Source: Lutibacter sp.
Lineage (GTDB): Bacteria; Bacteroidota; Bacteroidia; Flavobacteriales; Flavobacteriaceae
DNA length: 35,439 bases
Assembly: GCA_028696945.1 (NCBI GenBank)
Contig: JAQVGD010000009.1
Span: forward strand, 1 to 35,439
Direction of reading: 5' to 3'
Positions 11,188 through 32,039 of this stretch are shown piece after piece. The number at the start of each line of letters is the position of its first letter. The stretch's first letter is position 1. A program made the translations under genes and the position numbers. The notes under the pieces are model-generated. The model did no database searches. It worked only from the letters and a program-made list of their open reading frames with translations, and was not told the origin of the DNA.

Positions 11188-12261
11188 ATAAAAGTCATAC
11201 AACTCATAGATTCCTTAAGCCCTGGAGGTGCTGAAATGATGGCGGTAAACATTGCCAATGCATTGGCGGAAAAAGGGATAATTTCCCATTTATGCGCTAC
11301 AAGGAAGGAAGGGGGGTTAAAGGTCAAATTAGGGTTAAAGGTGCGCTATTTGTTTATAAATAAAAAAAAATCACTGGACTTCAATGCCATACAAAAATTA
11401 GTTCGCTATATAAAATATAACGAAATTAACACGATTCATGCGCATGCGACTTCTTATTTTACAGCTTTTTTGGTTAAATTATGGCTTCCAAAAATACATA
11501 TCATTTGGCACGACCATTATGGGAATAGTGAAAATTTAAGAGCGCGAAAAAAATTTCCTTTAGTTTTTATATCTAGAACTTTTAAAACGGTCATTTCCGT
11601 AAATAATAATCTGCACCATTGGGCACAGCAAAATCTAAACGCAAAACATTATAAATATTTGCCGAATTTCGCATCATTTAATATAGAGATTCCTAAATCC
11701 ACCAAATTGAAAGGGGTGAACGAAAAACGCATAGTATGCCTGGCTAATTTAAGGCCTCAAAAGGATCATTTAAACCTATTGAAAGCATTTAAAATAGTGC
11801 AGGGGAAACATACAGATTGGACTTTGCATTTGGTGGGCTTAGATTTTAAGGATACCTATTCCGAAGCCATAAAATCATATATAAAGCAACAAAATTTAAA
11901 TAACCATGTTTTTTTGTATGGCAGTTGTGCAGATACAAAAGCTATTTTAAAACAGGCCACGATAGGGGTATTGGGTTCAAATTCTGAGGGTTTGCCTGTT
12001 GCATTACTAGAGTACGGGTTATCGAAATTACCTGTTGTTGTAACCGATGTGGGGGAATGCGGAACGGTGGTTACCAACCTTGAAAGTGGCATGGTGGTTT
12101 TACCAAATAACGAAAATAAAATGGCTGAGGGAATCCTTTTTCTGATTGAAAATGACAAACAACGAAAAGTATTTGGAGAAAACTTGTATAAAAATACGGT
12201 TTTAAATTATGGGAAAAACACGTACCTTACCCAATTAATTTCTATATATCATTTTGAATAG
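11188..12261 (+). CDS. Glycosyltransferase family 4/1-type (GT-B), apparent ATA start
   Basis: ORF track starts at ATG 11236, but the in-frame upstream codons ata-aaa-gtc-ata-caa-ctc-ata-gat-tcc-tta-agc-cct-gga-ggt-gct-gaa encode (I/M)KVIQLIDSLSPGGAE, the typical GT-B N-terminus. C-terminal 'SNSEGLPVALLEYGLSKLPVVVTDVGECG'. Confidence 0.88.
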   Translation: MKVIQLIDSLSPGGAEMMAVNIANALAEKGIISHLCATRKEGGLKVKLGLKVRYLFINKKKSLDFNAIQKLVRYIKYNEINTIHAHATSYFTAFLVKLWLPKIHIIWHDHYGNSENLRARKKFPLVFISRTFKTVISVNNNLHHWAQQNLNAKHYKYLPNFASFNIEIPKSTKLKGVNEKRIVCLANLRPQKDHLNLLKAFKIVQGKHTDWTLHLVGLDFKDTYSEAIKSYIKQQNLNNHVFLYGSCADTKAILKQATIGVLGSNSEGLPVALLEYGLSKLPVVVTDVGECGTVVTNLESGMVVLPNNENKMAEGILFLIENDKQRKVFGENLYKNTVLNYGKNTYLTQLISIYHFE

Positions 12262-13597
12262 CCTTTCAAAACACAAACGTTTGGTTTTAGCCGTTTTTCA
12301 CCTTGTGTTAGGTGTGCTGTTTCTTTCAGGCTTAATTGCGAAAGCATACTCGCTGCTAATCCTGTTTTTTGGCGTGTTGTATATCATCAAAAATAAAAAT
12401 GAAAACAATGAAGCTATATACTGGAGTGCTTATCTAGTAGGGGCAGAAGTGCTTTTTAGAATGGCCGGTGGAATGATTTTTTACGAATTGCCAAAATATG
12501 CCGTATTGATTTTTCTTTTCGTGGGATTGGTGGTTGAAAAACGAAATCACCCAATTTCCTTGAGTTATCTCATTTACATCCTGTTGTTGCTGATAGGAAT
12601 TGCCTTTGTGGATATTCCGTTTAATGAATCCATTAGAAAAGCCATTGCATTTAATTTGAGCGGTCCTATATTGTTGGGGGTATCCGCCATCTATTTTTAT
12701 AAGCGACCTTTGTCGCTTTTAGCCTTGATGGACATGCTGTTTTTTATGGCATTGCCTATCATTTCTATGACTAGCTTCTTATATTTAAAAACCCCAGATA
12801 TTAGTGATATTAGTTTTGGTGGAAGTGCCAGTTTTGAGGCTTCAGGAGGTTATGGACCAAATCAGGTAGCCACTATTCTTGGAGTGGGCGTTTTTATTGT
12901 TGCGGCACATCTATTTTTAAAACGGCGTATTTTCGCTTTTTTCAGTATCGATATGTTTTTATTTACCTATATTATTTATAGAGGTTTAATCACACTTTCA
13001 AGAGGTGGAATGATTACAGCATTTTTGGCAATTGGAGCGTTTACCTATTATTATATCATATCTAGAGAAAATAAGATTTTGAATTTAGCTAAATATTCTG
13101 GATTGGTGGCTATGTTTGGTTTTGCTTTATTTGTTTATACCTCAAATGCAACCGGCGGAATGCTTGAAAATAGGTATGCCAACAAGAATGCTGCTGGAAG
13201 GGAAAAAGCTGACATTACCACGGGAAGAGCCACTTTATTGGCAAGTGAAATGAGTGCTTTTTTAGAACATCCATTTTTTGGTGTTGGCGTTGGTGGAGGA
13301 AAGTATTACAGATTGGAGGAGCTGGAAATTCAGGCAGCTTCACACAATGAAATGAGCAGGTTAATTGCTGAGCATGGACTTATAGGCATTGTAGCACTTT
13401 TTTTACTGATAACGGTTCCAATTCGGCACATGTTTAAACAGCCCTACTTGGCACGTGCCTTTTTGGGCTCATTTTTAATATTTTGGTTTTTAACCATCAA
13501 CCATTCGGCAATGAGAGTCGCATTTCCCGGCTTTATTTACGGATTAAGCGTAGCGGTAATAACATTTAAAGAAAAGGAGGAGGAAAATGAGTTATGA
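12254..13597 (+). CDS. O-antigen ligase/polymerase-like polytopic membrane protein (Wzy/WaaL-type)
   Basis: 447 aa, many TM segments, 'LSRGGMITAFLAIGAF', 'GRATLLASEMSAFLEHPFFGVGVGGG', 'SHNEMSRLIAEHGLIGIVALFLLI'. TTG start overlapping the upstream GT. Confidence 0.82.
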   Translation: MNSLSKHKRLVLAVFHLVLGVLFLSGLIAKAYSLLILFFGVLYIIKNKNENNEAIYWSAYLVGAEVLFRMAGGMIFYELPKYAVLIFLFVGLVVEKRNHPISLSYLIYILLLLIGIAFVDIPFNESIRKAIAFNLSGPILLGVSAIYFYKRPLSLLALMDMLFFMALPIISMTSFLYLKTPDISDISFGGSASFEASGGYGPNQVATILGVGVFIVAAHLFLKRRIFAFFSIDMFLFTYIIYRGLITLSRGGMITAFLAIGAFTYYYIISRENKILNLAKYSGLVAMFGFALFVYTSNATGGMLENRYANKNAAGREKADITTGRATLLASEMSAFLEHPFFGVGVGGGKYYRLEELEIQAASHNEMSRLIAEHGLIGIVALFLLITVPIRHMFKQPYLARAFLGSFLIFWFLTINHSAMRVAFPGFIYGLSVAVITFKEKEEENEL

Positions 13598-13602
13598 GTT
13601 AA

Positions 13603-13630
13603 ATATTAGATATTAGATATTAGATATTAA
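13603..13630. repeat. Heptanucleotide tandem repeat (ATATTAG)3-ATATTAA
   Basis: Read directly: atattag atattag atattag atattaa. Confidence 0.95.
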
Positions 13631-13663
13631 GAAGTTACCTGCAAGGCGATAAGAAAAAAATTT

Positions 13664-14134
13664 ATGAAAGAAAACAAATTTACAGAATGGACAAATTGGG
13701 AAAATAGAAATTCTTTAGAAGGAATTAAATTCCCTGGAATATATTGTATTGCAATTTCAGATATTGACTTATCACAGCAAAATTTTAAATGGATTTCAGA
13801 AATTAATTATATTGGTATGACAAATTCTGTAAATGGATTAAAAGGTCGTTTAAAACAGTTCGACAATACTGTTATCGGAAAGACTGGACACGGTGGAGCT
13901 GACAGATTTAGATTTAAATATGAAATTTATTCTGACCTTGTGAAAAAATTATACGTTTCTGTTTGCTCGTTTGAATGCAATGTTAAATCAAATTCTCCGA
14001 AAGATTTAAGAATTATGGGAGAGGTTGCAAAATTTGAATATGATTGTTTTGCAATCTATGCCGAGAAATTTAACAGTTTACCAGAATTTAATGACAAAAA
14101 AAACTCTCTGAAATACAGTTTGACACATAGATAA
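13664..14134 (+). CDS. Stand-alone GIY-YIG-like domain protein
   Basis: 156 aa. 'PGIYCIAIS...(spacer)...INYIGMTNSVNGLKGRLKQF' (GIY...YIG...R) and a downstream Glu in 'IMGEVAKFEYDCFAIYAEKF'. Confidence 0.6.
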   Translation: MKENKFTEWTNWENRNSLEGIKFPGIYCIAISDIDLSQQNFKWISEINYIGMTNSVNGLKGRLKQFDNTVIGKTGHGGADRFRFKYEIYSDLVKKLYVSVCSFECNVKSNSPKDLRIMGEVAKFEYDCFAIYAEKFNSLPEFNDKKNSLKYSLTHR

Positions 14135-15493: not shown

Positions 15494-16753
15494 TTAATCA
15501 ACTTTAAAATTTAAGGCTTTTACATATCCTTTGTTGGAGTAATTATTTTTATAAAGGCTATTTTTTAAATAAGCATTCAGTGCTATTTGAATTTTAATAA
15601 TATCTGGGCGATTTTCTCTCATTTTAGCATAAGTAGAACGATCGCTATCGGCATATTTAGTAACCAAATGATAATCTTTCGGCTCATTAAAATTCATAAT
15701 TCCTTTGGTGTTATTCATTTTTTTATAGGGCCAAAAAGCCCAACCAATCTCATATTTATCTAGCAAAATTCTAAAATCTTTTACCCATTCATCCGTATTT
15801 TCACCTGTTTCGCCAATATAGATTGGAACTTGATGTTTGTCTCTAAAATCGAGATATTCTTGTATCGCTTCCTGATTTACTTCAAACCAATATTTATGAA
15901 ATTCGTACACCACATTATCATCTGTAATTTCTTCAAAAACATCAAAATTTCCGCTCCAATTGGAGCCATTCAGAAAAATAGTGTGTTCTTTATCCACTGC
16001 ACGGATTTCGGTAATAATACGTTTATATAGTAAAAATAGTTGATGGTTTAAATAGGGAAGTTCATCATTAAAATAATGAGCAATAGGTTCATTTACAATA
16101 TCATAACCAATAATTACGGGATCGTTTTTATATTTTTTGGCGATTTCAACCCAAATTTCCGTCATTAAATCTTGGGAAGATTCACTTTTAAAAAGATATG
16201 GATATCCATAACTGTCGTCTATATTGTCACCGGTTTGTCCGCCTGGGGCAGCATGCATATCCAATAAAACATACATATTTTCTTGTCTGCACCAATCAAT
16301 TAATCGGTCAAAATACTTAAAACCGACATTTCTTTCTCCCATATACAAATCGTCCGTAAACATTTTATAATGAAATGGCAATCGGATATGATTACAGCCA
16401 ATACTCTTTAAATATTTAATGTCATCGTGGGTAATGTAATTATTCAAATACCCATTCCAAAACACCTGTAAACTGTCTGGACCGACCAATTCATAAAGCA
16501 TTTCATCAATTTTTCGAGGGGAATTTACCTGATTCATTTTGAACATATAGCCTTCAGGAACCAACCAGTTACCCAAATTTGTTCCTTTTAAAATTAAAGA
16601 ATTGCCATTTGCGTCAACCAATTGTGTTCCTTTTGTTTTTATAAAACTTAATGTATTGGCAGTTATTTTTTTTGAATTATTTTCAGCGACTTTACACGAA
16701 CTGACTGTTGAAATAAGTGCTATTGCGATTAATATATTTAGATATTTTTTCAT
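15494..16753 (-). CDS. Glycoside hydrolase family 5-like (cellulase/exo-glucanase type) lipoprotein
   Basis: 419 aa. Lipobox 'ISTVSSC', 'LILKGTNLGNWLVPEGYMF', 'HIRLPFHYKMF', 'LDMHAAPGGQ', 'YDIVNEPIAHY' acid/base Glu, 'IYIGETGENTDEW' nucleophile Glu. Confidence 0.88.
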   Translation of the reverse strand: MKKYLNILIAIALISTVSSCKVAENNSKKITANTLSFIKTKGTQLVDANGNSLILKGTNLGNWLVPEGYMFKMNQVNSPRKIDEMLYELVGPDSLQVFWNGYLNNYITHDDIKYLKSIGCNHIRLPFHYKMFTDDLYMGERNVGFKYFDRLIDWCRQENMYVLLDMHAAPGGQTGDNIDDSYGYPYLFKSESSQDLMTEIWVEIAKKYKNDPVIIGYDIVNEPIAHYFNDELPYLNHQLFLLYKRIITEIRAVDKEHTIFLNGSNWSGNFDVFEEITDDNVVYEFHKYWFEVNQEAIQEYLDFRDKHQVPIYIGETGENTDEWVKDFRILLDKYEIGWAFWPYKKMNNTKGIMNFNEPKDYHLVTKYADSDRSTYAKMRENRPDIIKIQIALNAYLKNSLYKNNYSNKGYVKALNFKVD

Positions 16754-16794
16754 TATGATTTGAGTTTTTCCAATATTTTAGTTTTTTTTGAGTT

Positions 16795-19700
16795 TCAGGT
16801 TAAAAAAAAATTTTCATTATACGAAACCAGAATTTTAGATACTTCGCCAGTTCTTCCAAAAATTTGATTGCTTATTTCTGAAGTTAACTTCAATCCATCA
16901 ATTGAAATTGATTTATCTTCTGAATAAATAACCTGAATTATATCCTTTTCAGCCAATTTATAAATAACTGGAACTTGACAATAAGTGAAAAACAGCGAAT
17001 TTTTTTCCAGCACCAATTCTTTTTTCTGATGGTTCACATCGGCATAATTGATTGTTTTCCTTTCTTCAAGAAATTCTTCTTTTTTCAACAATTTAGGTTG
17101 AAATTTTAACAATCCATTTTTTACGGAAACACCCAATTCTCCCATTCTTGCCAAAATATCTTCTTTTACTTGCCCTGTCATACCGGGCTGTTGCGCTCCT
17201 TTTCCCGCTGGAGTATGGGAATATGGATCTGTTGGAAATGCACCGTATAATTCAGGCGATTTATGAACGCCAATGCCTTCCGTTATTTCATAATAATGAT
17301 TTTTTAATTCAGTAATAATTACATTTTCAGCACCCGATTCAATCGCATCTATGCAACATTCTTGCACCGCCAACGCCAATTTAGAAACCATATGCCAATA
17401 AATAGAGCCAAGTCCTTCATAACCGAAAAAAGTGCCTGAACGCCCAGTAAAAGATTTGTGGTTGAAAATATTTTCAAAGGTAGTTAACAGCAATTCCCGA
17501 TCTTTTTCAATGAGTTTTTGGTAAGTTTTTGGCAATGATTCTAACGCACTTTTAAGACTGTTTGCGTTATTAAAATTTCCGTTGAAATGAACATTTTCCA
17601 AAACATCTTTTTCAATAATTTGTGAGTTTCCGTTTTTCAATAATTGTTTTGCCAAATCCGATTTTTCAATAGATGATAACGGAATATTATTTTTATCAAC
17701 AAATCTTTTAAGTTGCTTGTTCGGATACAAAATATAGCTATTTTGATCTGCTCGGTACAAGGCACTTTTTCTTAAACTGTTCAATAAAGTCAAAGAATTT
17801 AATGGCGAAAGATGTCCGGAACTTAAAACAGCAACTTGTCCTTCCAGCATTTCAGGCAAGTGGGAAATGGAGATTTCTTGTTCATTTTCAATGGTTATTA
17901 AATTGTAGGCATGGTATAAATTATCAGCGCGTTTGTTGGCGTTTATGGTGTGGTCTATAAATTTTTTAGTTAATCCAAAAAACTGGGATAACTCACTATT
18001 GCTTATGGCAGATTTATTGCTTGAAAATCCTTTTTCGTAAATTACAGTTCTGTATTGACTTCCCGCCAATCCAAGTCCGTCCAACATCTTTTTACGCGCT
18101 GTATCTGAAATTTTCCCTAATAAAATATGCTTATTTTTCTCAAATATTACAACAATCTCCTTGAAAAATCCCGTCAATTCTTCTGAAATAAAAATATTTT
18201 CTATGGAAGCATTTTCAACAATTTCTTCAAAGAAAATTAAAAATCGTCTTAAATAATAAAGCGTAACCATAGAAACGCCGTTGCCTACCAAGGCGTTGTT
18301 GGCGTCGTTCCATTCGGGTCTTTGCGTGTTGAGCCAAATACCGGCTTCTGGAATAAAATTGGACAGTTTTGCCAACACCGTTGCCAACAGTTTTTCAATT
18401 AAATTGACTTTATAAATTTCTTGAGTTTGGGATAGGAGCAAAGCGCCGTCAGCACCCAGCATTGTTTTTTGCAGATTTATTTTTTGAGCTAATTTTTGGT
18501 CAAAATAAATGGTATTTTTTGGATTTTTCAGGATTTCCACATAGCTTTTAATTTTATACGGGACATTGGCATACACAAACAATTCCTGATTAAAATATTG
18601 GGACAATTTGTTGGGATAATAATTTTCTGCAAATTCCAAAAATTTCAACAAATAGATAATTTGATGGTCGCCCCAATAGCCAATAAACGACCAAGGATTA
18701 TCTGGCTCAATCACTTCCCAATCGAAACCATCTTTTGTAATTCGATATGGATTATATCCTTCAAAAGTCGTTGCATTTAAAAACTTAAAAATCATATTTT
18801 CAATAAACTCAGGATAAGAATGCACTAGTGCTTCCCAATTCTGAAAAATATCTCGCCAGTTTCCCTCTTAATCCAAAATTTTTGAACCGTCTATTTCATT
18901 GGTTGTGTTAATCGAAAATTTATTCCAGGGCCTGCTGGGATCGCCGTGTCTTCTGCTGAATTTCAACGGCATATATTCAAAACAAAGGCGTTTAAAATTT
19001 AAATCTTTATTTTGTTGTGCTATTTCCTTTAGTTTTTTTAATGAGAAAGTGTTAGGTAATTTCCCCATTTCGATTTCATTATTTTTGAAGGCAATTTTAT
19101 TCCCTTTTTCAATATATTTCGAAAAATCGTTCTTATCTATATTGTAATTTTCATCAAAAATACCGCCGCGCATGATATTAAAAAGCGTGTTTGCATAATG
19201 CCTTGAAGTGCGAAGTTTATCGTTGGTTACCTGCAATCCGTCGGAATTTCCCGTTAACTGAATCAGATTTTTAGTTCCCAATTCAATATCTGCTAAAACT
19301 TCTTGTTGTAAGTTTTTTATTGATTTTAATTTTTCTGATATATTTACAATTGCAGCAGGTCCTTGGTTCACATTGGCTACCAGCATCCAGTTTTTAGATT
19401 CTTTACTTTTGAGTTTAAATTCTGAAAATGTAAAATAGGCGCCTTTTTCGGCCCTAATGTCAATTTCTTGTTCAATTGGCAGGCCATTCCTGAAATTATT
19501 AAGTTGTAATGAAGACAATAAATATTTCGGATTTCTTAGGCCAATTGACCAAGTTATGGTTGCTTTTAAAGCTTCACTAGGTTCCGCTTTGTCAATAATA
19601 ATGGCACTTAAAGCATAAATTCCCAATCCGATTTCTGCTTCAAGCTCGTTTTTTTTGTAGGCGTCAACCAAATTGCTTTTGCTGTTTTGAAGTTCTGCTG

Positions 19701-20268
19701 AAAGTCCGTAAGGCAGTATATTTTGAATGCCATCCAATACGGTTACTGATTTATTTTTGGAAGAATTATTACTTAATGTGGCTTTTTTTACAAATCCAAA
19801 AAGATTGCTGGAATTCCATTCATATCGAAAAGTTAATTCAAGATCATTATTTATTTCTTCAAAAATGATTTTATTTCCAAAGCTATTTTTATATAAATTT
19901 CTTTGAATTTCATACAGTCCTTGATAACTATCTGAAAAAGGTTCCCAAAGAAGGATTTTCTTTTTTTTATGAATTTGAATTATGGTTTTACTTCCTGTAA
20001 TAGTTGCAGATTCTGTTATTTTATCATCTGTATAATAGGGAAAAAGTGCGGAATCGCAATCTTTTCTTCCAGCTGTTAACCCTCCATTACTCGAAATAAA
20101 CATCCAGTGATTTGAGTCACTTACCATGCTCATAAAGAAAGGCCTTAAACCATCAGAATTAGAAATCTTGTAGAAATTTTCATTTCCTATAATAATTTCA
20201 TCCCCTGCAACAATTCTGGTCTTGAAATTAGCTTCTGATTTTCCAATAAATATTGGTTTGTGAGACAT
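16795..20268 (-). pseudogene. GH94/GH149/GH161-like beta-glucan phosphorylase candidate (1157 codons), interrupted by a single in-frame TAA at 18868..18870
   Basis: ORFs 18868..20268 and 16795..18825 lie in the same frame. The joining codons are ...GGT TCA AAA ATT TTG GAT [TAA] GAG GGA AAC TGG CGA GAT ATT TTT CAG AAT TGG GAA GCA CTA GTG CAT TCT TAT, giving SKILD*EGNWRDIFQNWEALVHSYPEF. N-terminal half has 'GGLTAGRKDCDSALFPYYTDDKI'; C-terminal half has 'RPEWNDANNALVGNG' (GH94-like W-N-D catalytic-Asp motif). No signal peptide. Confidence 0.75.
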
Positions 20269-20292
20269 TATGAGCGCTCTATTTAGAAAATG

Positions 20293-21606
20293 TTAATTTA
20301 CTTTAAATGGAATATTTGCAGTTGCTGCATGTCCGTGGCCATCATCGGCATAAACAAATAAACGGTACATTCCGGCAGTTGGTGCTTTAAAGGTAAGTTC
20401 CCCGTCTTTTTGGTTAACTATTTCAAAATTAACACTTTTCGGACGCTCTTCATGGTCGCCACCATCTCCTAAATCAACGCTTTCAGGCAATATTTCCCAA
20501 GTATAATTGATGGGATCATTTTCAAAATCGGAAATTTTCAGGGATGCTGTATATAATTTTTCGGCTTCCATTACCACATTTTCATAAGCTGTTTTGCCAT
20601 CAATGGTATAAGAAACTATTTGAGGTGTTCTGTTTTCAGGCCATTTGCTATTCCAAACAAAATGCATCACATCCACAGATTCCGTTTCTTTGCCATCTTC
20701 CAAATAAATACCATACCAAGTAGGTGTTCTTTCCTGTTTATTTCCCCAAAGAAAAACATAAGAGCCAATACATTGCAATGAATCAGCTTCAATTCCGCCT
20801 TTGTATCTCTTTAAATAATTAGCGGCTTTAAGGGTGCTGTTTTCTTCTATCGGCGCACCCCAAGCTGTTTTTGGAACTTCCCAATGCCCGGTAGCACCCC
20901 ATTCGGTTACTATGTACGGACCTTCCCATCCATATTCCCTGATTAATTTCGGTAAATTTGGAAGATCGCCATACATTTGAACAGATAAAATATCTAAATC
21001 GGAGCATTTTTCTTTGATTAATGCAATTTCCTTTTTGGAAATACCCGCCAACATGGTTGTGGTTAAATGATTTGGATCAACTTCATGAATCATTTTCGAA
21101 ATGTCATTCACGGCATCCCAAACTTTCGGATTTTCATAACGCAAATTCAATTCATTTCCAATTCCCCAAATCATTAAAGCAGGATGGTCTTTTAAGTCCA
21201 AAACTTTAGTTTTAATACGCTCCAATTGCTCTTTTACGGCGACAGTATCATTATAGTCAAATCCGTGGCGTTCTCTTTCTACTTCAATGCCCATAGTTAC
21301 CATCAACCCGTTTTTGTACGCCTCATCTAAAATTTCTTTGCCACTTTTTTGTCCGTTTTCGGTTCTCCAAGTTCTAAAAGAATTTCCGTTGTGTTTGGCA
21401 ACCGACGCAATATTGCCGAATTCCAATCCAGCCCCTTTAATGTAAAATGGTTTTCCGGCAACAAAAAGTTGGAATTTTCCATCGGTATTTGTTAAAGTTA
21501 CTTTTACCGGTTTCTCCAGCGGTAATTGAGTTGTTGTTATTTGTGGCGTTTTTACACATGAAAACAAGCAAAATAAACACACGATTATAATTGGGGTAAT
21601 TTTCAT
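20293..21606 (-). CDS. GH2-like TIM-barrel glycoside hydrolase lipoprotein with C-terminal beta-sandwich
   Basis: 437 aa. Lipobox 'CLFSC', 'PFYIKGAGLEFGN', 'NSFRTWRT', 'LMIWGIGNELNLRYENPKVW' (acid/base Glu), 'PYIVTEWGATGHWEV' (nucleophile Glu). Confidence 0.75.
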   Translation of the reverse strand: MKITPIIIVCLFCLFSCVKTPQITTTQLPLEKPVKVTLTNTDGKFQLFVAGKPFYIKGAGLEFGNIASVAKHNGNSFRTWRTENGQKSGKEILDEAYKNGLMVTMGIEVERERHGFDYNDTVAVKEQLERIKTKVLDLKDHPALMIWGIGNELNLRYENPKVWDAVNDISKMIHEVDPNHLTTTMLAGISKKEIALIKEKCSDLDILSVQMYGDLPNLPKLIREYGWEGPYIVTEWGATGHWEVPKTAWGAPIEENSTLKAANYLKRYKGGIEADSLQCIGSYVFLWGNKQERTPTWYGIYLEDGKETESVDVMHFVWNSKWPENRTPQIVSYTIDGKTAYENVVMEAEKLYTASLKISDFENDPINYTWEILPESVDLGDGGDHEERPKSVNFEIVNQKDGELTFKAPTAGMYRLFVYADDGHGHAATANIPFKVN

Positions 21607-21613
21607 TTTATGG

Positions 21614-23128
21614 TTATGATCTAATTAATAATTCTTCAACTTCTTCCAAAGTTTTTCCCTTTGTTTCAATGACATATTTATAAACAAACAGCACGGATAA
21701 AACAGCCATGCCCGCATAAATTGCGAAAGTTACCGTTGGTCCTAAATTTGTGAGTTCCCAAGGGAATAATTGGGTTACGGCATAACTTACCAAGGAGTTG
21801 AAAAATCCAACGATGGAGATAGCGATTCCTTTTACGTTTCCAGGGAAAATTTCCGACAGCATCGTCCACATTACTGGTCCCAAAGAAATGGCAAATGCCG
21901 CCACATATAACAAAATGGCTATCAATACCAAATTGGCGTTGATGTTAATGAAATTTTTAGTTTCGTTTTGCTTAAATTCAAGTAATTGCGCCTCACTTAT
22001 CAACGGTGCAACACCAGCAAACAACTCACTTTGTGAAGAAAATGTCGATCCGTTTAATGGTGTTAAGGACGATTTCATGTCGGCATTTCCAATTTTTGCA
22101 ATGGTTGATTCATTAAAATTGTAGGTTGCGTTGTTAAAGGCTAAAGTTGCCATTGAAAGTGCAATTGCCATGGCTGAAGTTCCAATAATCAACAAAGGTT
22201 TTCTGCCCAATTTATCAATAAACCAAATAGCGACAAAAGTGAACACCAAATTGATAAGTCCAACAACAATTGCCTGTAAAAATGAAGCATCCGTACTTCC
22301 GCCGGCTTGTTCAAAAATGGTTGGCGCGTAATAAAAAATAGCATTAATTCCCGTTATTTGTTGGAAAAAGGCCAATCCGAAAGCGATAATGAGAATAACT
22401 GTCATTCTTTTGCTGAAGAAATCTGCATAGGTGCCTTTGGCTTCTTTTTTGTCGATTCCTCTCTGAATTTCTCCAATAGTGGTATCGGCAAATTCATCCC
22501 CACCAATTTTTATCAATATTTTTTTAGCTGTTACAACTTCATTTAAACGTTGAATTAACCATCTCGGACTTCTAGGCACCATAAAAAGCGCAAAAAAGTA
22601 GATGATTGCAGGAATTGCTTCCACGCCCAACATCCACCTCCAGCTTTCGCCTTCCAAATCTTTCAAAAAATAATTTGAAAAATACGCTACGGAAATTCCC
22701 AAAACAATGTTTAGTTGGTTTAAAGAAACCAAGCTTCCCCTTAATTTAGGCGGCGCAATTTCAGCAATATAAATTGGCGCAATTAAGATAGCACCACCGA
22801 TGCCGACACCTCCAATAATTCTGGCGATGACAAAAGAAAGATAATCGGTTGCTGTTGCAGACCATAATGCAGATACCGTAAAAAGCATGGCGGTTACAAT
22901 CAATATTTTTTTTCTTCCGAATTTATCGCTTAAAGGACCAGCGGAAATGTTTCCAGCCATCGCACCGAAAATTACGCAACCCACGGAGAATCCAAGTTCC
23001 CAATCGGACATTTTAAAATAAGTTCGAATTCCGTTTACGGCACCTGAAATTACCGCACTGTCGAAACCCAAAAGGAAGCCGCCCATAGCAACAATGAGGC
23101 TGATGGAAATGGCATAAGATTTTTTCAT
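21614..23128 (-). CDS. MFS sugar porter (sugar:H+ symporter family)
   Basis: 504 aa. 'GFDSAVISGAVNGI', 'DKFGRKKILI', 'PRSPRWLIQ', 'FFQQITGINAIFYYAPTIFEQAG', 'DKLGRKPLLIIG', 'YVIETKGKTLEEVEE'. Confidence 0.94.
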   Translation of the reverse strand: MKKSYAISISLIVAMGGFLLGFDSAVISGAVNGIRTYFKMSDWELGFSVGCVIFGAMAGNISAGPLSDKFGRKKILIVTAMLFTVSALWSATATDYLSFVIARIIGGVGIGGAILIAPIYIAEIAPPKLRGSLVSLNQLNIVLGISVAYFSNYFLKDLEGESWRWMLGVEAIPAIIYFFALFMVPRSPRWLIQRLNEVVTAKKILIKIGGDEFADTTIGEIQRGIDKKEAKGTYADFFSKRMTVILIIAFGLAFFQQITGINAIFYYAPTIFEQAGGSTDASFLQAIVVGLINLVFTFVAIWFIDKLGRKPLLIIGTSAMAIALSMATLAFNNATYNFNESTIAKIGNADMKSSLTPLNGSTFSSQSELFAGVAPLISEAQLLEFKQNETKNFININANLVLIAILLYVAAFAISLGPVMWTMLSEIFPGNVKGIAISIVGFFNSLVSYAVTQLFPWELTNLGPTVTFAIYAGMAVLSVLFVYKYVIETKGKTLEEVEELLIRS

Positions 23129-23196
23129 TCTATATTTATTGGTTGGTTATTGATTGTTCTTTTCGACTTCGCTTCGGGTAAGGTTATTGGGTTAAA

Positions 23197-24666
23197 CTAT
23201 AATACAATTGTTTGAATTGAATGGGCTGGAGCATGTAATTCCGCTATTCTTAAATTCATCGTTACACTATAGGATATTGCTGCATCGCCATGGTTCATTA
23301 CCACCACAACAATGCCTCCGTCTTCATTTATAAATGCAGTGGTTATTAAATTGTTAGCACTTGATACGCTTGAAATTCTTTTTGCGCCCGGACGTATAAA
23401 TTTTGAAAAATGCCCAATATAGTAATAGGAATTTGTGAACAGAAGTTCATTTGTTTTTGTGTCTCCATGAACAGGGGAGAAGCACAGGTTCCCAACGTGA
23501 TTTGGTCCTCCGGTTTCATCCAACAAAATATTCCAGTCTGTCCAGGCAACCGTTCCGTTATTAAAATCGTTAATCATCGATTTTCCATAACGTTCTGCCA
23601 ATTTCGGATCTTCCGAGACAATTCGCGTTAAGTCATATTTTTCGTTGGTGCCTTCTGTAAAAATCAAATTTTTGTCAGGAAACGCCTCATTTACGGCTTT
23701 TACGTTATTAAACATAGGAATACCGTCTTTCCAGTCTTCATACCAATGAAAACCAATTCCCCAAACGTATTTTGAAGCTTCAGGATCATTTAAAATCACG
23801 CTGGCTCTTTGAAACATTAAATCGCGGTTATGATCCCAAACAATTATTTTTTTATCGCCCAAACCTTCTTTTTCCAAGGTTGGTCCTAAATAATTTTTTA
23901 AAAAATCGCGTTCCTCTTCCGCAGAATAAATACAAGATTCCCAAGTTTGGGTGGCCATAGGTTCATTTTGAACGGTTAATCCCCAAATTGGAATTCCTTC
24001 TTTTTCGTAGGCTTTTATAAATTTTGCATAATAATTTGCCCAAGGCTGATAGAATTCTGGTTTTAATTTTCCGCCCTGCAACATATTGTTGTTCGTTTTC
24101 ATAAAAGCAGGAGGACTCCACGGACTTGCATACATCATTAATTTTCCTCCGGCAGCGGCAATTGCCAGTTTTGTAAATGGCAATCTAAATTGCTTGTCGT
24201 GATCAATGTTGAAAGTCTTTAACTCGGAATCTCCTTCTTCAATATAAGTGTAACTTTCGCTTGAAAAATCGCAGCTGTTAATGATGGTTCTTCCCAACGT
24301 ATAGCCAATCCCTTTATCAACGCTATAATAAGCTTCCATAAACAGGTCTTGATTTTCTTTTGAAAGTTTGTAAAAGGTTTCTGCGGAAGCATCGGTTAAC
24401 GCTGCGCCAATCCCCAAAAAGGTTTGAAATTGCTTGCTTGGATCGACCGAAATAGCAGATTCTGTTTCCAAAGGCTGTTTAAAATCATTAAATTTTAAAG
24501 TATCTGTAAGTGTTAACTTTAAATCCGTATTATGTGCAGAAGTATAAACTATTGCAGTTTTATTTTCTGCCATTATTGGTTTCTCAGCCTTAATAATGGT
24601 TTTTTCTTTTGGGGTACATCCAGTAAATGCAATAATCAGAAGAAGGATTGTTGATATTTTTTTCAT
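23197..24666 (-). CDS. Glycoside hydrolase family 30 (glucosylceramidase/beta-1,6-glucanase type) lipoprotein
   Basis: 489 aa. Lipobox 'IAFTGC', 'FLGIGAALTDASAETFYKL', 'MYASPWSPPAFMKTNNNMLQGGKL', 'WGLTVQNEPMATQTWESC', 'LIFTEGTNEKYD'. Confidence 0.92.
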   Translation of the reverse strand: MKKISTILLLIIAFTGCTPKEKTIIKAEKPIMAENKTAIVYTSAHNTDLKLTLTDTLKFNDFKQPLETESAISVDPSKQFQTFLGIGAALTDASAETFYKLSKENQDLFMEAYYSVDKGIGYTLGRTIINSCDFSSESYTYIEEGDSELKTFNIDHDKQFRLPFTKLAIAAAGGKLMMYASPWSPPAFMKTNNNMLQGGKLKPEFYQPWANYYAKFIKAYEKEGIPIWGLTVQNEPMATQTWESCIYSAEEERDFLKNYLGPTLEKEGLGDKKIIVWDHNRDLMFQRASVILNDPEASKYVWGIGFHWYEDWKDGIPMFNNVKAVNEAFPDKNLIFTEGTNEKYDLTRIVSEDPKLAERYGKSMINDFNNGTVAWTDWNILLDETGGPNHVGNLCFSPVHGDTKTNELLFTNSYYYIGHFSKFIRPGAKRISSVSSANNLITTAFINEDGGIVVVVMNHGDAAISYSVTMNLRIAELHAPAHSIQTIVL

Positions 24667-25502
24667 TTTTTATAATTTAATTTTACAAACACGGGTAAAT
24701 GATCAGATGGATATTTTAAATCTTTTGAATCGCTTAAAACAGCATATTTTTTAACTATTAGCTTGTTGTTTTTAGAAACAAAAATATAATCAATCAATAT
24801 AGTTACCGGTTCATTATGCTTAAATCCATTGAATGTTCCTGTTGGTCCAAAAGGTTTTTCTTCGGAAATGTCTCTGCTATCATCCATTTGAGTTTTTAGT
24901 GAAATAATCCTTTCAGCATCGGGTTCAGAATTAAAATCGCCCATAAAAATAACCGGATAGTTTTGCGTATTTACTTCTGCTATTTTTGAAAGAATAAGTT
25001 CTATTCCTTTTGTTCTTGCAACTTCCCCAATATGATCCAAATGTGTGTTGAAAACCCAAAGATTCTTTTTTGCTTTTTTATCTTTAAATAGGGCATAAGT
25101 ACAAACCCTGTTATAAGCGGCATCCCAACCTTTTGAAATTACATTTGGCGTTTCAGAAAGCCAAAAAGTATTGGATTCTTTCAATATAAATCGGTCTTTT
25201 TTATAGAAAATATTGGAAGATTCCCCTTTTCCTTCGCCATCCCGTCCCATACCAACATAACTATATTGCGGTAGCGCGGTTACAATATCTATTACCTGAT
25301 TTGGCGTTGCTTCTTGAACTCCAAAAATATCTGGTTCGTAAAATTGAATTTGTGAAGTGAAAAATTCTTTTCTGAGCGGCCATGCATTTTCGCTGTCAAC
25401 CGCAACATTCAATCGAATATTGTAGGTAATAACTTCCAATGATTGGGCACTTGAAAATAAGGCATATAAACTAAAGGCCAACAAAACAATTGATTTTCTC
25501 AT
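24663..25502 (-). CDS. Secreted endonuclease/exonuclease/phosphatase-fold hydrolase
   Basis: ORF from internal Met at 25502 (MRKSIVLLAFSLYALFSSAQS). 'EVITYNIRLN', 'DIFGVQEATPNQ', 'WVFNTHLDHIGE', 'VIFMGDFNSEPD', 'IDYIFVSK', 'YPSDHLPVFVKL'. ATGA overlap with the GH30 gene. Confidence 0.9.
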   Translation of the reverse strand: MRKSIVLLAFSLYALFSSAQSLEVITYNIRLNVAVDSENAWPLRKEFFTSQIQFYEPDIFGVQEATPNQVIDIVTALPQYSYVGMGRDGEGKGESSNIFYKKDRFILKESNTFWLSETPNVISKGWDAAYNRVCTYALFKDKKAKKNLWVFNTHLDHIGEVARTKGIELILSKIAEVNTQNYPVIFMGDFNSEPDAERIISLKTQMDDSRDISEEKPFGPTGTFNGFKHNEPVTILIDYIFVSKNNKLIVKKYAVLSDSKDLKYPSDHLPVFVKLNYKK

Positions 25503-25503
25503 G

Positions 25504-27078
25504 CTAATTATTTTGCGATGATTTTTGATATATTCTAACATAGTCTATTAACATTTCAGAAGGAAAAATGGAATCGTCAATTTCTCCGCCCCAATTGCCG
25601 CCAATGGCAAGATTTATGATTAAATAATAGGGTTTTTCAAAAGGCCAGCCTTCATTGGTGGTGTCTTTTCCGTTTTCGCCTTTTGTGGCTTCATAAAACA
25701 AGTTATTGTCGATATAAAATTTAATGCTTTCAGAAGTCCATTCAATTCCGTACAAGTGAAATTCTTTAAAAACGTCCGGCAGAGTTTCAAAATGGGTATA
25801 TTGATTTTTTTTCCAAAAATTGTACAGCTCAGTATGAAGCGATGTGTGTACAACGTTTGGGTCTTTGCCAACGTGCTCCATAATGTCTATTTCTCCGCTT
25901 AGCGGCCATTCTTCCTCTTTTGTGCGAAGCGTTTCAGGAAGCATCCATATAGCAGGCCAAGTTCCTTTACCTTCAGGCAGTTTTGCCATCACTTCCAGTT
26001 TGCCGTATTGCATAAGAAACCTTTTATAAGTTGTTAAGCGGGCAGAAGTATATTCGCTATTTTTATAAGGCTTTTTTAAGGCTACGATATGAAGTTTACC
26101 TGCTTTTACAAAAGAATTTTCAATCGATTTCTCCAAATAAAATTGCTTTTCGTTATTTCCCCAGCCATGACCGCCAATATCATAATTCCATTTTGTGGAA
26201 TCTGGTAAACCGGAATAGTCAAATTCATCAGACCAAACTAATTTATAATCTTGGTAGGAAGCTTTAAATTGTGCAATTCTTTCCAGTAACAATTCCGGTT
26301 CGTTGGTGGTGATAAAATCGAAATTGTTTGCCAACAGCCAGTCCATATCCACAGCGTCATTTACCGTCCAAGCGTTTAAGGTAATATTGTTATTTTTAGC
26401 ACTTTCAATCCATTCAGGATGGTTTTTAAAAACTGAAAAATGACAATCTAATCCTGAAATTCCATCCGCTTTTAATTGCTCTGGAGATTTATTTCCTTCT
26501 AAATACTGGGTGGAAACTGTCGGATTTAATACTCTTATCTTCTTTAAGATTTCATAATCAAAACTTATAAAAGCAACCATCTGTTCGGCATCGAGTTCTT
26601 TAAACAATTGAACTACTTTTGTGGCAATTATTTGGCCTCTTTCTTTGCTTATTTCTGATGGTTTTATTTCACAAACCAACCTTGTTGAATTGTTATTTTC
26701 CATTCCAGCTTTAATATATTCCCTTAGTGTGGGCAGTTTTTCGCCATTTGTTAGTTTGAATTTTACAAGATTGGCGTAAGTGGTTTTTTCGATTTCCAGA
26801 TTGTTATAATGCGGATCGTGATTGATTACCAATGAATCATCGGCCGTCATTCTCACATCAAATTCGGAGCCTGTACAATTTAATTCAATGGCATGTTTAA
26901 GCGATGCAATGGAATTTTCGGGAAAACCGTTTTTCTTCCAAGCACCTCTGTGGGCAACCACGCTATTGTTCGCAAAGGCTATTTTATTCATTGCAACAGG
27001 TTTGGTTGAAACACAGGCTGAAAAAAGTAAAATAATGAATCCAATAATTACCGTGTTAATTTTCTTTAATCTATTCAT
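25504..27078 (-). CDS. Bimodular lipoprotein: glycerophosphodiester phosphodiesterase (GDPD) domain fused to GH16 beta-glucanase
   Basis: 524 aa. Lipobox 'ILLFSAC'; GDPD 'VVAHRGAWKKNGFPENSIASLKHAIELNCTGSEFDVRMTADDSLVINHD' and 'VNDAVDMDWLLANNFDFITTNEPELL'; GH16 'KLVWSDEFDYSGLPD', 'WPAIWMLPE', 'SGEIDIMEHVG' (ExDxxE), 'IDYVRIYQ'. Confidence 0.93.
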   Translation of the reverse strand: MNRLKKINTVIIGFIILLFSACVSTKPVAMNKIAFANNSVVAHRGAWKKNGFPENSIASLKHAIELNCTGSEFDVRMTADDSLVINHDPHYNNLEIEKTTYANLVKFKLTNGEKLPTLREYIKAGMENNNSTRLVCEIKPSEISKERGQIIATKVVQLFKELDAEQMVAFISFDYEILKKIRVLNPTVSTQYLEGNKSPEQLKADGISGLDCHFSVFKNHPEWIESAKNNNITLNAWTVNDAVDMDWLLANNFDFITTNEPELLLERIAQFKASYQDYKLVWSDEFDYSGLPDSTKWNYDIGGHGWGNNEKQFYLEKSIENSFVKAGKLHIVALKKPYKNSEYTSARLTTYKRFLMQYGKLEVMAKLPEGKGTWPAIWMLPETLRTKEEEWPLSGEIDIMEHVGKDPNVVHTSLHTELYNFWKKNQYTHFETLPDVFKEFHLYGIEWTSESIKFYIDNNLFYEATKGENGKDTTNEGWPFEKPYYLIINLAIGGNWGGEIDDSIFPSEMLIDYVRIYQKSSQNN

Positions 27079-27128
27079 TTTAGAAACTATTTTTTAGTTG
27101 CTTCTTTTTTTTTAATTGAAGCAAAATT

Positions 27129-27200
27129 TTATTGATAAACCCTAACATAATCCACAAACATTCTTTGGGGAAATGTAGTGGAGGAGTCTTTTGGTAATTT
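27129..27200 (-). pseudogene. Decayed 3' remnant of a GH16 gene
   Basis: Minus strand encodes KLPKDSSTTFPQRMFVDYVRVYQ*, similar to the GH16 C-terminus of the neighbour (DDSIFPSEMLIDYVRIYQ). Confidence 0.6.
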
Positions 27201-27205
27201 AATTA

Positions 27206-27240
27206 AAAAGAACTCCTCTAATTTTAGGAGGAGTTCTTTT
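27206..27240 (-). terminator. Strong hairpin (terminator/attenuator) downstream of susD
   Basis: Perfect 13-bp stem aaaagaactcctc-(taattttag)-gaggagttctttt, T-runs on both sides. Oriented after susD on the minus strand. Confidence 0.8.
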
Positions 27241-27345
27241 CGATGTTAAAAACTCAAATTTTTATTTTAAAGAGATCCTTAAATCTTTAGAAAAATAAAA
27301 TTTAAATCATAAATAAAAACAAAGAACAATATGTAAGTAAATTTA

Positions 27346-29004
27346 TTAATATCCTGAATTCTGAGGATAATCTGGTCCCAATAAATTTAATTCGCTTTGT
27401 GGAATTACCCAATTTACCATCCAAGGTTGCATATTACGTCTGGCATCATTTCTGTATGGGAATGGATCTTCAGGTGTATTTGCATGTCCAGCAGAATTTT
27501 CAAGACTTAAATCTCCTGATTTACCATACCCAGCATGATTAACAACATATTCATATAGTTTTCCAGTCCGTTTTAGCATATACCAACGACGCCCCTCAAA
27601 AGCCAATTCTCTAGCTTGTTCATCAAGAATATCTTCAATAGTTACGATGCCTGTTAACGCAGCCGTTTTTGCTCTAGTTCTCACGGCATTTAAGTTTGTT
27701 AAAGCACCGCCATTATTTCCAAGCATCATATTAGCTTCTGCCGCATAAAGATAAGTTTCAGCCAAACGAGCCATCATGATATTTTTTACTTGGGTGTCTT
27801 CAGTAGGGATACCGTCATCTGGGAAGTATTTTTTGCAACCTACATTTTGACGAATAAAGAATCCGTTTCTGCTTGCTTGATCACCGAATTCCTTCCAAGG
27901 TGCAGTTGGATTGTCTCTAATGATGGTTCCTAACGTTTGGCCTGCAGGTAATGTTGCAGGATCATTATATAAATAATCTTTAACATAGTATGAGCCTTTG
28001 ATTCTGGTATCATTAGGATCTTGTGCCAATAAATCACGAACGTAATTGTTCATTGTCAACCATCCAAATCCGCGGCCACCTTGCTCTACCGTGTATTTTG
28101 AGCCAGGTGTTTGTTCAGCATAATTAGGCATTAGGTTGAAGTTAATTTTATTTGGATTTCCATTAACTGCCTTTTTGAATTGTAAAACCCACAATGCCTC
28201 AGTTGTGTTCATGTCGCCTTTAAAAACTTGATCTGTTTGCGCTACCAATTTATGGTTTGCAACTTGTGCAATTACCGCTTCTGATTGTGTTTTGGCTTCC
28301 AACCAATTATTTTGCCATAATGCCACTTCGGCTTTTAGGTGTCTAGCCACTCCTTGGGCTATTCTTCCTGTAGCAGTTGGCGTCCAACTTAAGTGATCAA
28401 TAGCGTAGGTTAAATCTTCATTAATAAGGGTGTAAATAGCTGCTTCTGGAGTTATTTCATTAATAATGTTCAATGCATTTTCAGGCGTGGTAGGCTCTGT
28501 TGTTACATAAATATTGTTGAATAATTTGAATAAGGTAAATACAGAATTTGCTCTAAAAAATTTAGCCTCAGAAACAATTTGTGCTTTTTGATCATCTGGC
28601 ATTGATACCGATTCGGCTGCTTTTATTAAAGCATTAGATCGGTCTAATATTCTATAATATAACTTCCAATAATCTCCATGAACACCGCTATTGGTAGGGT
28701 ATCTACCACTATTTAATTTTCCGTAGTTTGAGATTTCACCACCGCGAGGAACATTTAGGTCATCTTTGGCATCTAAAATAAGCGGATTTGATCCATTGTT
28801 TGCTAGGTTTTCCCAAAATGATCTTTGGATGCTATATAGTGCAACCACTCCAGACTCTAGTCCTTCTGGAGTATTATATACAAAATCAGCGGTAAACCCT
28901 GATGTAGGTTCTTCAATTAAGTAATCTTCATTACATGAAAGAAAGGAAACAAAGATTGCAAGTAGTGCAATGCTCCATTTCGTAAATTTATTACTATTTT
29001 TCAT
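27346..29004 (-). CDS. SusD/RagB-family nutrient-binding outer membrane lipoprotein
   Basis: From internal Met at 29004 (MKNSNKFTKWSIALLAIFVSFLSC). 'RFFRANSVF'-type 'EAKFFRANSVFTLFKLF', 'RLAETYLYAAEANMMLGNNGGALTNLNAVRTRA', 'ILDEQARELAFEGRRWYMLKRTG'. Confidence 0.95.
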   Translation of the reverse strand: MKNSNKFTKWSIALLAIFVSFLSCNEDYLIEEPTSGFTADFVYNTPEGLESGVVALYSIQRSFWENLANNGSNPLILDAKDDLNVPRGGEISNYGKLNSGRYPTNSGVHGDYWKLYYRILDRSNALIKAAESVSMPDDQKAQIVSEAKFFRANSVFTLFKLFNNIYVTTEPTTPENALNIINEITPEAAIYTLINEDLTYAIDHLSWTPTATGRIAQGVARHLKAEVALWQNNWLEAKTQSEAVIAQVANHKLVAQTDQVFKGDMNTTEALWVLQFKKAVNGNPNKINFNLMPNYAEQTPGSKYTVEQGGRGFGWLTMNNYVRDLLAQDPNDTRIKGSYYVKDYLYNDPATLPAGQTLGTIIRDNPTAPWKEFGDQASRNGFFIRQNVGCKKYFPDDGIPTEDTQVKNIMMARLAETYLYAAEANMMLGNNGGALTNLNAVRTRAKTAALTGIVTIEDILDEQARELAFEGRRWYMLKRTGKLYEYVVNHAGYGKSGDLSLENSAGHANTPEDPFPYRNDARRNMQPWMVNWVIPQSELNLLGPDYPQNSGY

Positions 29005-29030
29005 TGTTGTATTTTTTAAATAAGTTAACA

Positions 29031-32000
29031 TTAAAGACCAATATTTAATCCAAGAGTGATTGACTTTGTGTCTGGGAAATCATTTGGATTATTTTCTGGG
29101 CTATATGATTTATAATCTGTCCAAGTAAATAAATTGGTGCCAGTTACATAAAATTTGACATTGCTCATTTTTAATTTACTTAAAACTGCACTAGGTAGGT
29201 TATAAGCCATAGTCAATGTTCTTAATCTAACATAAGATGCATCTGTTACCCCCATAGTTCCAATATTTGCCGGTGCATGAAGATAACTAGGACGTGGGTA
29301 AGTTGTTGATGGATTTTCTGGTGTCCAATAATCCACTTTTATACCATTTCTTACTGATTGAAGGGTTCCTCCTTCATTAAAATTAGCTAAAAACGGATTG
29401 AATTTTGTTGATCCTTCCACGATATAAAAATCTGCCAACATTTCAAAGTTTTTATATACAAAAACGGTTGATAAAGAGCCATACCATTCAGGGTCTGTGT
29501 TGATAACAATATTGTCATCATCATTAACAATTCCATCCCCATTGACATCTTTTACGCGGATAGATCCAGCTTTTAATAAGGTAAGATCTGAGTTGGTGGT
29601 ACTTCCTGGCTGCGCCTGAGGAGATGCCAAAGCTTCTTCATCTGTTTGGAAAATACCGTCAAACACCAATGTTCTTATATTGTTGATAGATTTTCCAATA
29701 TAACGACCTCTGGCCTGATCATCTTTTGGGGCGCCATCAATGTCCACAATACCCGATTTGATTAATTCGTTTTTGTTTTTTGTAAATGAGGCACTTATAC
29801 TCCAATTAAAGTTGTCATTTTTTACAATTTGCCCAGTTAACAACACTTCAATACCACTATTTTTTGATTCACCGCCGTTAGTTATTGTTGAACTAAAACC
29901 AGATGTTCCTCCAAGCGTAATATCTGTTAGTAAATCAGTTGTATTGGTGTCGTAATAATCTACCGAACCTGTGATTCTGTTTTTAAGCAACCCAAAATCA
30001 ATCCCAACGTTTGTGGTTGTAGAGGTTTCCCAAGTTAAATCTGGATTAGGTAAAACAGTTCCCGGTAAATTACCACCAACAATTGCTCCTCCAAAAATAT
30101 ATGGATAGTTACCCACCACCCCAAGCGTAGTATAAGGATCTAAGGATTGATTTCCCACAGAACCGTAACTTACTCTTGCCTTTAGTTGACTGATAGTTTC
30201 TGAATTGGCCAAAAAGTTTTCTTTATGTATTTGCCAGGCTACAGAACCAGCAGGAAAAAATCCCCATTTTTTGTTTTCAGAAAAAACGGACGCACCGTCT
30301 CTACGAGCTGTAAAGGTAAAAAGATATTTATCCATTAAGGTATATCTTGCCCTTCCTAAAAATGATAATATTCTTTTTTGCTCCTCAATCCTTGTTACTT
30401 TAAAATTTAAAGCATTGGTAATACCATCAAATCCAAGTAAATCATTCCCAAAACCAGTTCCGTTTGAAGATGTTTTTGAAGTCTTTATTTGATTGGCAGA
30501 TTGAACAGCCGTGAAATCAAATTTATGATCTTCTCCAATACTCACATTATAATTTAAAATATTTTCAATCAAATATTCTTCGCGCAATGTATTGGCAACA
30601 TCGGCAATACCATTAAGATTAACACCCGCAGAATGGATTTTTGATATATAACTTCCTTCATCAATAAATTTTCTGCTAATCAGAGTGTTTAATTTGTAGG
30701 AGAAATTTTTTGCCAGCTTGTAATTCCCAACCAAATTTATATTGTAGAAATTGACTTTAATTTCGTTTTGGGATTCTCTGATATTCCATAAGGGATTTAC
30801 CGCAGAACTACTTGCATTGGCACCAGCAAGGAGTTTAACAAGCGCTCCAGATTCATCATAAGGTCCTGTAAAAGGAGAAATGGTAATAAAATCTAAATTT
30901 GAAGTTTCTTTTTCTTGTTTGTCTGTAGCTAAATTTATATTTGCTTCAACACTCGCTCTTTCATTTATTTTCTGATTGATATTTAATCTGAAAGATCCTC
31001 TTTCATAATTAGAAGAAGGGACTAATCCCGATTGATCGAAATAATTAACACTAGAAAATATTTTGGTATTTTCTGTTCCGCCTGAAAGACTTACAGTATT
31101 GCTTGTTATAAAACCAGCTTTTAGTACTTCATCTTCCCAATTTGTGTAATTACCTGCCAAATAATTCAAATACTCTGGTGATGTAGCACCATTAAAACTT
31201 AATTCATCAGATAAATAATCTTGACTTGGTGTATTGTCTGTTCTTTTTGCTTCTCTTCTCAATTGCGCAAACTCTTCAGCATTGTACAAATCAAAGTTCT
31301 TTGTTAATTTTTGTGAAGTCATATAAGAATTAAATGAAACTGTCATTTTCCCTTCCTTGCCTTTTGTAGTGGTAACAAGTATAACACCATTAGAAGCTCT
31401 AGCGCCATAAATGGCTTGTGCAGATGCATCTTTTAAGACTTCAATGGAAGCAATGTCATCGGGGTTAATATCATTAATATTTTCAATTGGAAAACCATCT
31501 AATACAATTAACGGATCATTACCGCCACGAATAGAGTTTCTTCCCCTAATCAAAATATTTGAAGTTCCTCCAGGTCTGGCAGATCCTAATGTAATTTGCA
31601 CACCCGCAGCCTGTCCGCGCAGCATCTCCGAAACATTCGAAGTTGGAACTGCCAAAGCTTTGTCTATTTCTACTTTTGAGACCGCTCCTGTAACGTCAGC
31701 CTTTTTTTGAGTACCATATCCAACAACTACAACTTCCTCTAAACTTTGGGTATCTTCATTTAGGGTTACGTTCAAATAGTTAGAATTGCCAATTGCAATT
31801 TCTTTGGTGGTGTATCCAAGAAAAGAGAATACGAGTATTTCTCTATTTTGGACGTCAGACAGCGTAAATTTACCGTCAAAATCGGTGGATGTGCCTTTAG
31901 CTGTGTTTTTAACAACTATAGAAACTCCTGGCAAAGGCAAACCGCTTGCGTCGGATACGGTTCCTTTAATTTCATAACTTTGCGCGTAAATTGAAATACC

Positions 32001-32039
32001 CGCAAAACATAGAAAAAATGATAATAGTAGTGATTTCAT
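29031..32039 (-). CDS. SusC/RagA-family TonB-linked outer membrane transporter
   Basis: 1002 aa. 'KGTVSDASGLPLPGVSIVVKNTAKGTSTDFDGKFTL', 'VVVVGYGTQKKADVTGAVSKV', 'LIRGRNSIRGGNDPLIVLDGFPI', 'IASIEVLKDASAQAIYGARASNGVILVTTTKGKEG'. Confidence 0.96.
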   Translation of the reverse strand: MKSLLLSFFLCFAGISIYAQSYEIKGTVSDASGLPLPGVSIVVKNTAKGTSTDFDGKFTLSDVQNREILVFSFLGYTTKEIAIGNSNYLNVTLNEDTQSLEEVVVVGYGTQKKADVTGAVSKVEIDKALAVPTSNVSEMLRGQAAGVQITLGSARPGGTSNILIRGRNSIRGGNDPLIVLDGFPIENINDINPDDIASIEVLKDASAQAIYGARASNGVILVTTTKGKEGKMTVSFNSYMTSQKLTKNFDLYNAEEFAQLRREAKRTDNTPSQDYLSDELSFNGATSPEYLNYLAGNYTNWEDEVLKAGFITSNTVSLSGGTENTKIFSSVNYFDQSGLVPSSNYERGSFRLNINQKINERASVEANINLATDKQEKETSNLDFITISPFTGPYDESGALVKLLAGANASSSAVNPLWNIRESQNEIKVNFYNINLVGNYKLAKNFSYKLNTLISRKFIDEGSYISKIHSAGVNLNGIADVANTLREEYLIENILNYNVSIGEDHKFDFTAVQSANQIKTSKTSSNGTGFGNDLLGFDGITNALNFKVTRIEEQKRILSFLGRARYTLMDKYLFTFTARRDGASVFSENKKWGFFPAGSVAWQIHKENFLANSETISQLKARVSYGSVGNQSLDPYTTLGVVGNYPYIFGGAIVGGNLPGTVLPNPDLTWETSTTTNVGIDFGLLKNRITGSVDYYDTNTTDLLTDITLGGTSGFSSTITNGGESKNSGIEVLLTGQIVKNDNFNWSISASFTKNKNELIKSGIVDIDGAPKDDQARGRYIGKSINNIRTLVFDGIFQTDEEALASPQAQPGSTTNSDLTLLKAGSIRVKDVNGDGIVNDDDNIVINTDPEWYGSLSTVFVYKNFEMLADFYIVEGSTKFNPFLANFNEGGTLQSVRNGIKVDYWTPENPSTTYPRPSYLHAPANIGTMGVTDASYVRLRTLTMAYNLPSAVLSKLKMSNVKFYVTGTNLFTWTDYKSYSPENNPNDFPDTKSITLGLNIGL

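Follow-up and report, generated by a model that had tools for sequence, protein, structure and literature searches.

The locus examined here raises the question of how a large phosphorylase gene carrying one in-frame stop codon should be read: as a damaged gene, as a gene whose stop is bypassed, as two separate genes, or as an error in a draft sequence. The window, a 35,439-nucleotide stretch comprising an entire contig (JAQVGD010000009.1, C134), derives from a Lutibacter sp. draft genome (GCA_028696945.1) of 3.36 Mb in 310 contigs, with an estimated contamination of 6.9%. A minus-strand frame runs from an ATG to a terminal TAA with one interruption only, an in-frame TAA at codon 467, beyond which it continues for a further 690 residues (Table 1). 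Reading codon 467 as an amino acid gives a product of 1157 aa. The TAA is the sole lesion seen within the window, and the interrupted sequence occurs once in the genome. An initial annotation, made from the DNA letters and a list of open reading frames, had given the coordinates of the two halves, their common frame and the single TAA between them, all of which proved exact, and had proposed that 14 sense codons carry the protein on past the stop, in agreement with the gap-free match of codons 468–481, which lie between the stop and the second reading frame, to the structure 6HQ6.

Table 1 Features of the interrupted gene and of the surrounding locus, in window coordinates
Feature	Position	Strand	Basis
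GH5 enzyme, same orientation, directly downstream of GH149	15494–16753	-	Pfam PF00150
GH149 beta-1,3-glucan phosphorylase gene	16795–20268	-	6HQ6/6HQ8 full-length match; NF058639.1; 99 aligned relatives
Downstream half from GTG 482: remaining catalytic domain and jelly-roll domain, without Arg-Asp motif	16798–18825	-	6HQ6 match; start codons
Trp653-Asn654-Asp655	18304–18312	-	Catalytic-loop W651-N652-D653 of Pro_7066 (PMC6771811)
Arg472-Asp473, between stop and first restart	18850–18855	-	Sugar-phosphate-binding R470-D471 of Pro_7066 (PMC6771811)
In-frame TAA, codon 467; invariant Tyr in relatives	18868–18870	-	61 TAT, 38 TAC, no stop
Upstream half, residues 1–466: beta-sandwich, linker, first part of catalytic domain	18871–20268	-	6HQ6 match; domain limits PMC6771811
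GH158 enzyme	20293–21606	-	GH158 structure 9oro, E = 1.5e-90
MFS sugar transporter	21614–23128	-	Pfam Sugar_tr; TIGR00879 sugar porter above cut-off
GH30, beta-1,6-glucanase-like	23197–24666	-	Pfam PF02055/PF17189; NF053856 match below cut-off
Endonuclease/exonuclease/phosphatase-fold protein	24663–25541	-	Pfam PF03372
GDPD-GH16 two-domain beta-1,3(4)-glucanase	25504–27078	-	Pfam; PDB 7ww4 full-length match
SusD-like glycan-binding protein	27346–29031	-	Pfam PF07980/PF14322
SusC-like TonB-dependent receptor	29031–32039	-	Pfam PF07715/PF13715
Likely locus regulator: Y_Y_Y domain, weak LuxR-type and propeller matches	32319–35168	-	Pfam

Family assignment and active site

The annotation had suggested a large cytosolic beta-1,3-glucan phosphorylase of the GH94, GH149 or GH161 type. 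Based on sequence comparison the family is GH149, leaving the large cytosolic phosphorylase in place and removing the other two families. The joined 1157-aa translation aligned with the GH149 beta-1,3-oligosaccharide phosphorylase Pro_7066, whose structure is solved (PDB 6HQ6), over residues 1–1152 at 1579 bits, and scored 1764 bits over residues 19–1149 against the NCBIfam GH149 equivalog model NF058639.1, for which the cut-off is 1150. Taken alone, the upstream half matches residues 20–483 of the 6HQ6 chain (E = 1e-184) and the downstream half residues 500–1171 (E = 3e-270). The halves thus belong to the same family, not to unrelated ones as would have spoken against the annotation, and because they align to adjoining stretches of a single protein of known structure, the split frame is far beyond what chance would produce. 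Pfam returned no family for either half. A GH94 assignment was ruled out since neither half, nor the genome as a whole, has a match to the GH94 Pfam model (PF17167), and GH161 was ruled out on a weak match of 40 bits over residues 65–226, as opposed to 1579 for GH149. These differences separate the gene from GH94 and GH161 phosphorylases, although the WND and RD motifs are common to GH94 and GH149 (PMC6771811).

All active-site residues reported for Pro_7066, namely R470, D471, W651, N652, D653, E951 and H959 (PMC6771811), are kept in the window protein, at positions 472, 473, 653–655, 951 and 959. The WND motif with its catalytic Asp is intact, as is the RD motif for the sugar 1-phosphate, which lies 3' of the stop and is invariant in 100 sequences, while the Glu and His equivalents fall within the motif GRSGTFFGYEGLGSIYWHM starting at residue 942. 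The N terminus of the sequence shows no hydrophobic leader, in keeping with a cytosolic enzyme. Pro_7066 has a Tyr and an open frame where the window gene has TAA. As assembled, the gene therefore departs from GH149 in lacking a complete catalytic-domain open frame, and its sequence marks it as a GH149 member by descent whose frame is interrupted.

Since the (alpha/alpha)6 catalytic domain of Pro_7066 spans residues 342–1045 (PMC6771811), the stop cuts this domain approximately 125 residues in. The Arg-Asp motif begins five residues after the stop. In-frame starts beyond the stop are GTG 482, the first, and ATG 492, so a restarted chain would be without residues 468–481, among them the stretch GNWRDI, unchanged across 100 aligned sequences. 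Judged against the Pro_7066 active site (PMC6771811), neither fragment, nor both together, would be expected to hold a complete set of active-site residues. Gene callers are expected to split the gene into two partial proteins, and automated tallies to miss the otherwise complete GH149 of a laminarin-type locus.

Relatives and age of the stop

A Tyr occupies the codon-467 position in 99 of 99 aligned relatives, in keeping with the earlier suggestion that the TAA, which is one base away from either Tyr codon, replaces this residue. A match was found in 138 of 397 genomes sampled from the same family. Flagged relatives were re-aligned, eight from this family search and three from a search of the genus, and none of these 11 has an internal stop, any stop seen being the gene end at residue 1153–1154; one more flagged fragment, representing the C-terminal end in genome G022, lay outside the re-aligned set. 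Among the 99 aligned relatives and in the 397-genome search, the window gene is the sole interrupted copy found. An arrangement as two separate proteins in relatives, which the annotation had named as contrary to its view, was rejected, as no relative is split at the junction in the alignment, the family search or the re-alignments. In genome G005 the GH149 gene is broken across two contigs (L158 and L159) at residues 574–579, an assembly break in a conserved part of the gene.

The age of the stop was assessed using tests based on pairwise distances. Near-invariant positions were changed in 0 of 207 cases downstream of the stop and in 2 of 105 upstream. Pairwise dN/dS to close relatives ranged from 0.10 to 0.14 downstream and from 0.07 to 0.13 upstream, the same as for pairs of intact relatives, and the amino-acid distance of residues 468–800 to six outgroups was 28.0%, as compared with 26.0–28.1% for seven intact siblings. 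An old stop would have let the downstream half decay, and as no decay is seen, the stop is probably of very recent origin, a variant of the strain or an error in the consensus. Based on the terminal synonymous distance of ~0.4 and the absence of changes in 207 codons, we roughly estimate that the unconstrained time would be at most ~1.5% of the branch, a bound that recombination makes approximate.

Explanations for the interrupted frame

The findings are best explained by a lone nonsense codon in an ordinary GH149 gene for the breakdown of algal beta-1,3-glucan, representing a null allele that is very young or of low frequency, or else an error of the consensus or the assembly (probability approximately 0.94). 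An error or consensus artefact has about an even chance of being the cause, and a real young allele just short of that. A single base difference would have turned the invariant Tyr codon into TAA. By analogy with the GH149 family mechanism, the uninterrupted enzyme would work in the cytosol, splitting beta-1,3-gluco-oligosaccharides with phosphate to yield glucose 1-phosphate. The product of the stop allele would be a fragment of 466 residues that has neither the catalytic Asp nor the Arg-Asp motif and is expected to be inactive. The annotation had offered a recent lesion, a sequence error or a read-through stop; the first two are retained here and the third is disfavoured. The gene is not evidence for a new kind of translation.

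A stricter proposal is that the nonsense mutation is fixed in the species, making the gene a young pseudogene with loss of cytosolic phosphorolysis of beta-1,3-gluco-oligosaccharides. This is possible but we hold it tentatively, at somewhat less than even odds. The stop is present in the assembly at a single base from Tyr, the genome has neither a second GH149 copy nor a GH94 substitute, and GH149 went undetected in several genomes of the genus, suggesting that its absence is tolerated, but there is no second lesion and no relaxation downstream of the stop, and the roughly estimated ~1.5% of the branch would leave a fixed null little unconstrained time. With one GH149 gene and no GH94 match, a real fixed null would remove the function, the evidence in either direction being indirect. 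Were the null real and common, it would provide a small natural experiment on flavobacteria without laminarin-oligosaccharide phosphorolysis.

Regular read-through or recoding of the stop, with some full-length enzyme being made, appears very improbable. Normal purifying selection on the downstream half would be consistent with it, but would be expected equally for a very young stop or an error, and the stop is common to no relative. The genome yielded 42 tRNA genes, of which none carries an anticodon matching TAA, TAG or TGA; 16 of the 23 ORFs in the window end in TAA, making it the usual terminator there; and folding of the RNA after the stop was no better than that of shuffled sequences (z = 0.51), on which ground a structured read-through signal was rejected. 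Genome-wide, no stops were found inside 79 domain matches (50 ABC-transporter, 26 Plug and three GH3), which together with the tRNA set and the TAA usage led us to reject recoding or suppression. Read-through is thus without positive support, and its narrower form, in which this one species bypasses the TAA to make a low level of full-length phosphorylase, perhaps under regulation, is more doubtful still. Least probable of all is a two-chain enzyme assembled from separately translated ORFs. The downstream frame does have its GTG and ATG starts, but the split falls inside the catalytic domain, the invariant GNWRDI would be in neither chain because the first restart lies beyond the essential Arg-Asp motif, and split relatives number zero.

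The upstream and downstream halves have different nearest relatives, which raised the suspicion that the stop sits where a chimeric contig was joined or where recombination took place. Residues 1 to ~185 are nearest to genome G002, at ~87–94% nucleotide identity in sliding windows with most others lower, whereas beyond residue ~800 it is G002 that stands apart from the rest, with a divergent last third. The pattern points to recombination within the genus and to mosaic GH149 genes. The mosaic structure and the 6.9% contamination would favour a joint, but both boundaries are far from codon 467 and do not explain the stop, and from residue ~420 to ~540 the close relatives resemble the window to much the same degree. 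The idea of a chimeric joint at codon 467 was accordingly rejected and is highly unlikely.

The surrounding laminarin-type locus

The minus-strand run from 15494 to 32039 is a laminarin-type utilization locus, the substrate name being taken from the enzyme families present, and is conserved within the genus. Members of GH158 are endo-beta-1,3-glucanases. The run from the glucanase to the GH5 gene is kept in genomes G001 and G003, almost complete in G010, and partly present in G002 and G013; the GH5 enzyme is 87–90% identical in G001, G003, G010 and G026. The genes around GH149 align over their full length to relatives. GH149 genes are known from Bacteroidetes polysaccharide utilization loci, which have SusC/SusD, several glycoside hydrolases, a transporter and GH149, as does the window locus, the interrupted frame being its only difference (PMC5827456).

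The sugar transporter is 93–94% identical in G001, G003 and G010, and only 43% identical in G002, indicating an exchange of the transporter within a locus that is otherwise similar. The two-domain glucanase consists of a glycerophosphodiester phosphodiesterase domain fused to a GH16 laminarinase and adjoins the phosphatase-fold protein. This fusion, kept in G003 and G002 while G001 and G010 differ, may hint at a glycerophosphate-bearing glucan. Just outside the laminarin-type locus, glycosyltransferase and O-antigen-ligase-type genes are situated on the plus strand (11236–14134).
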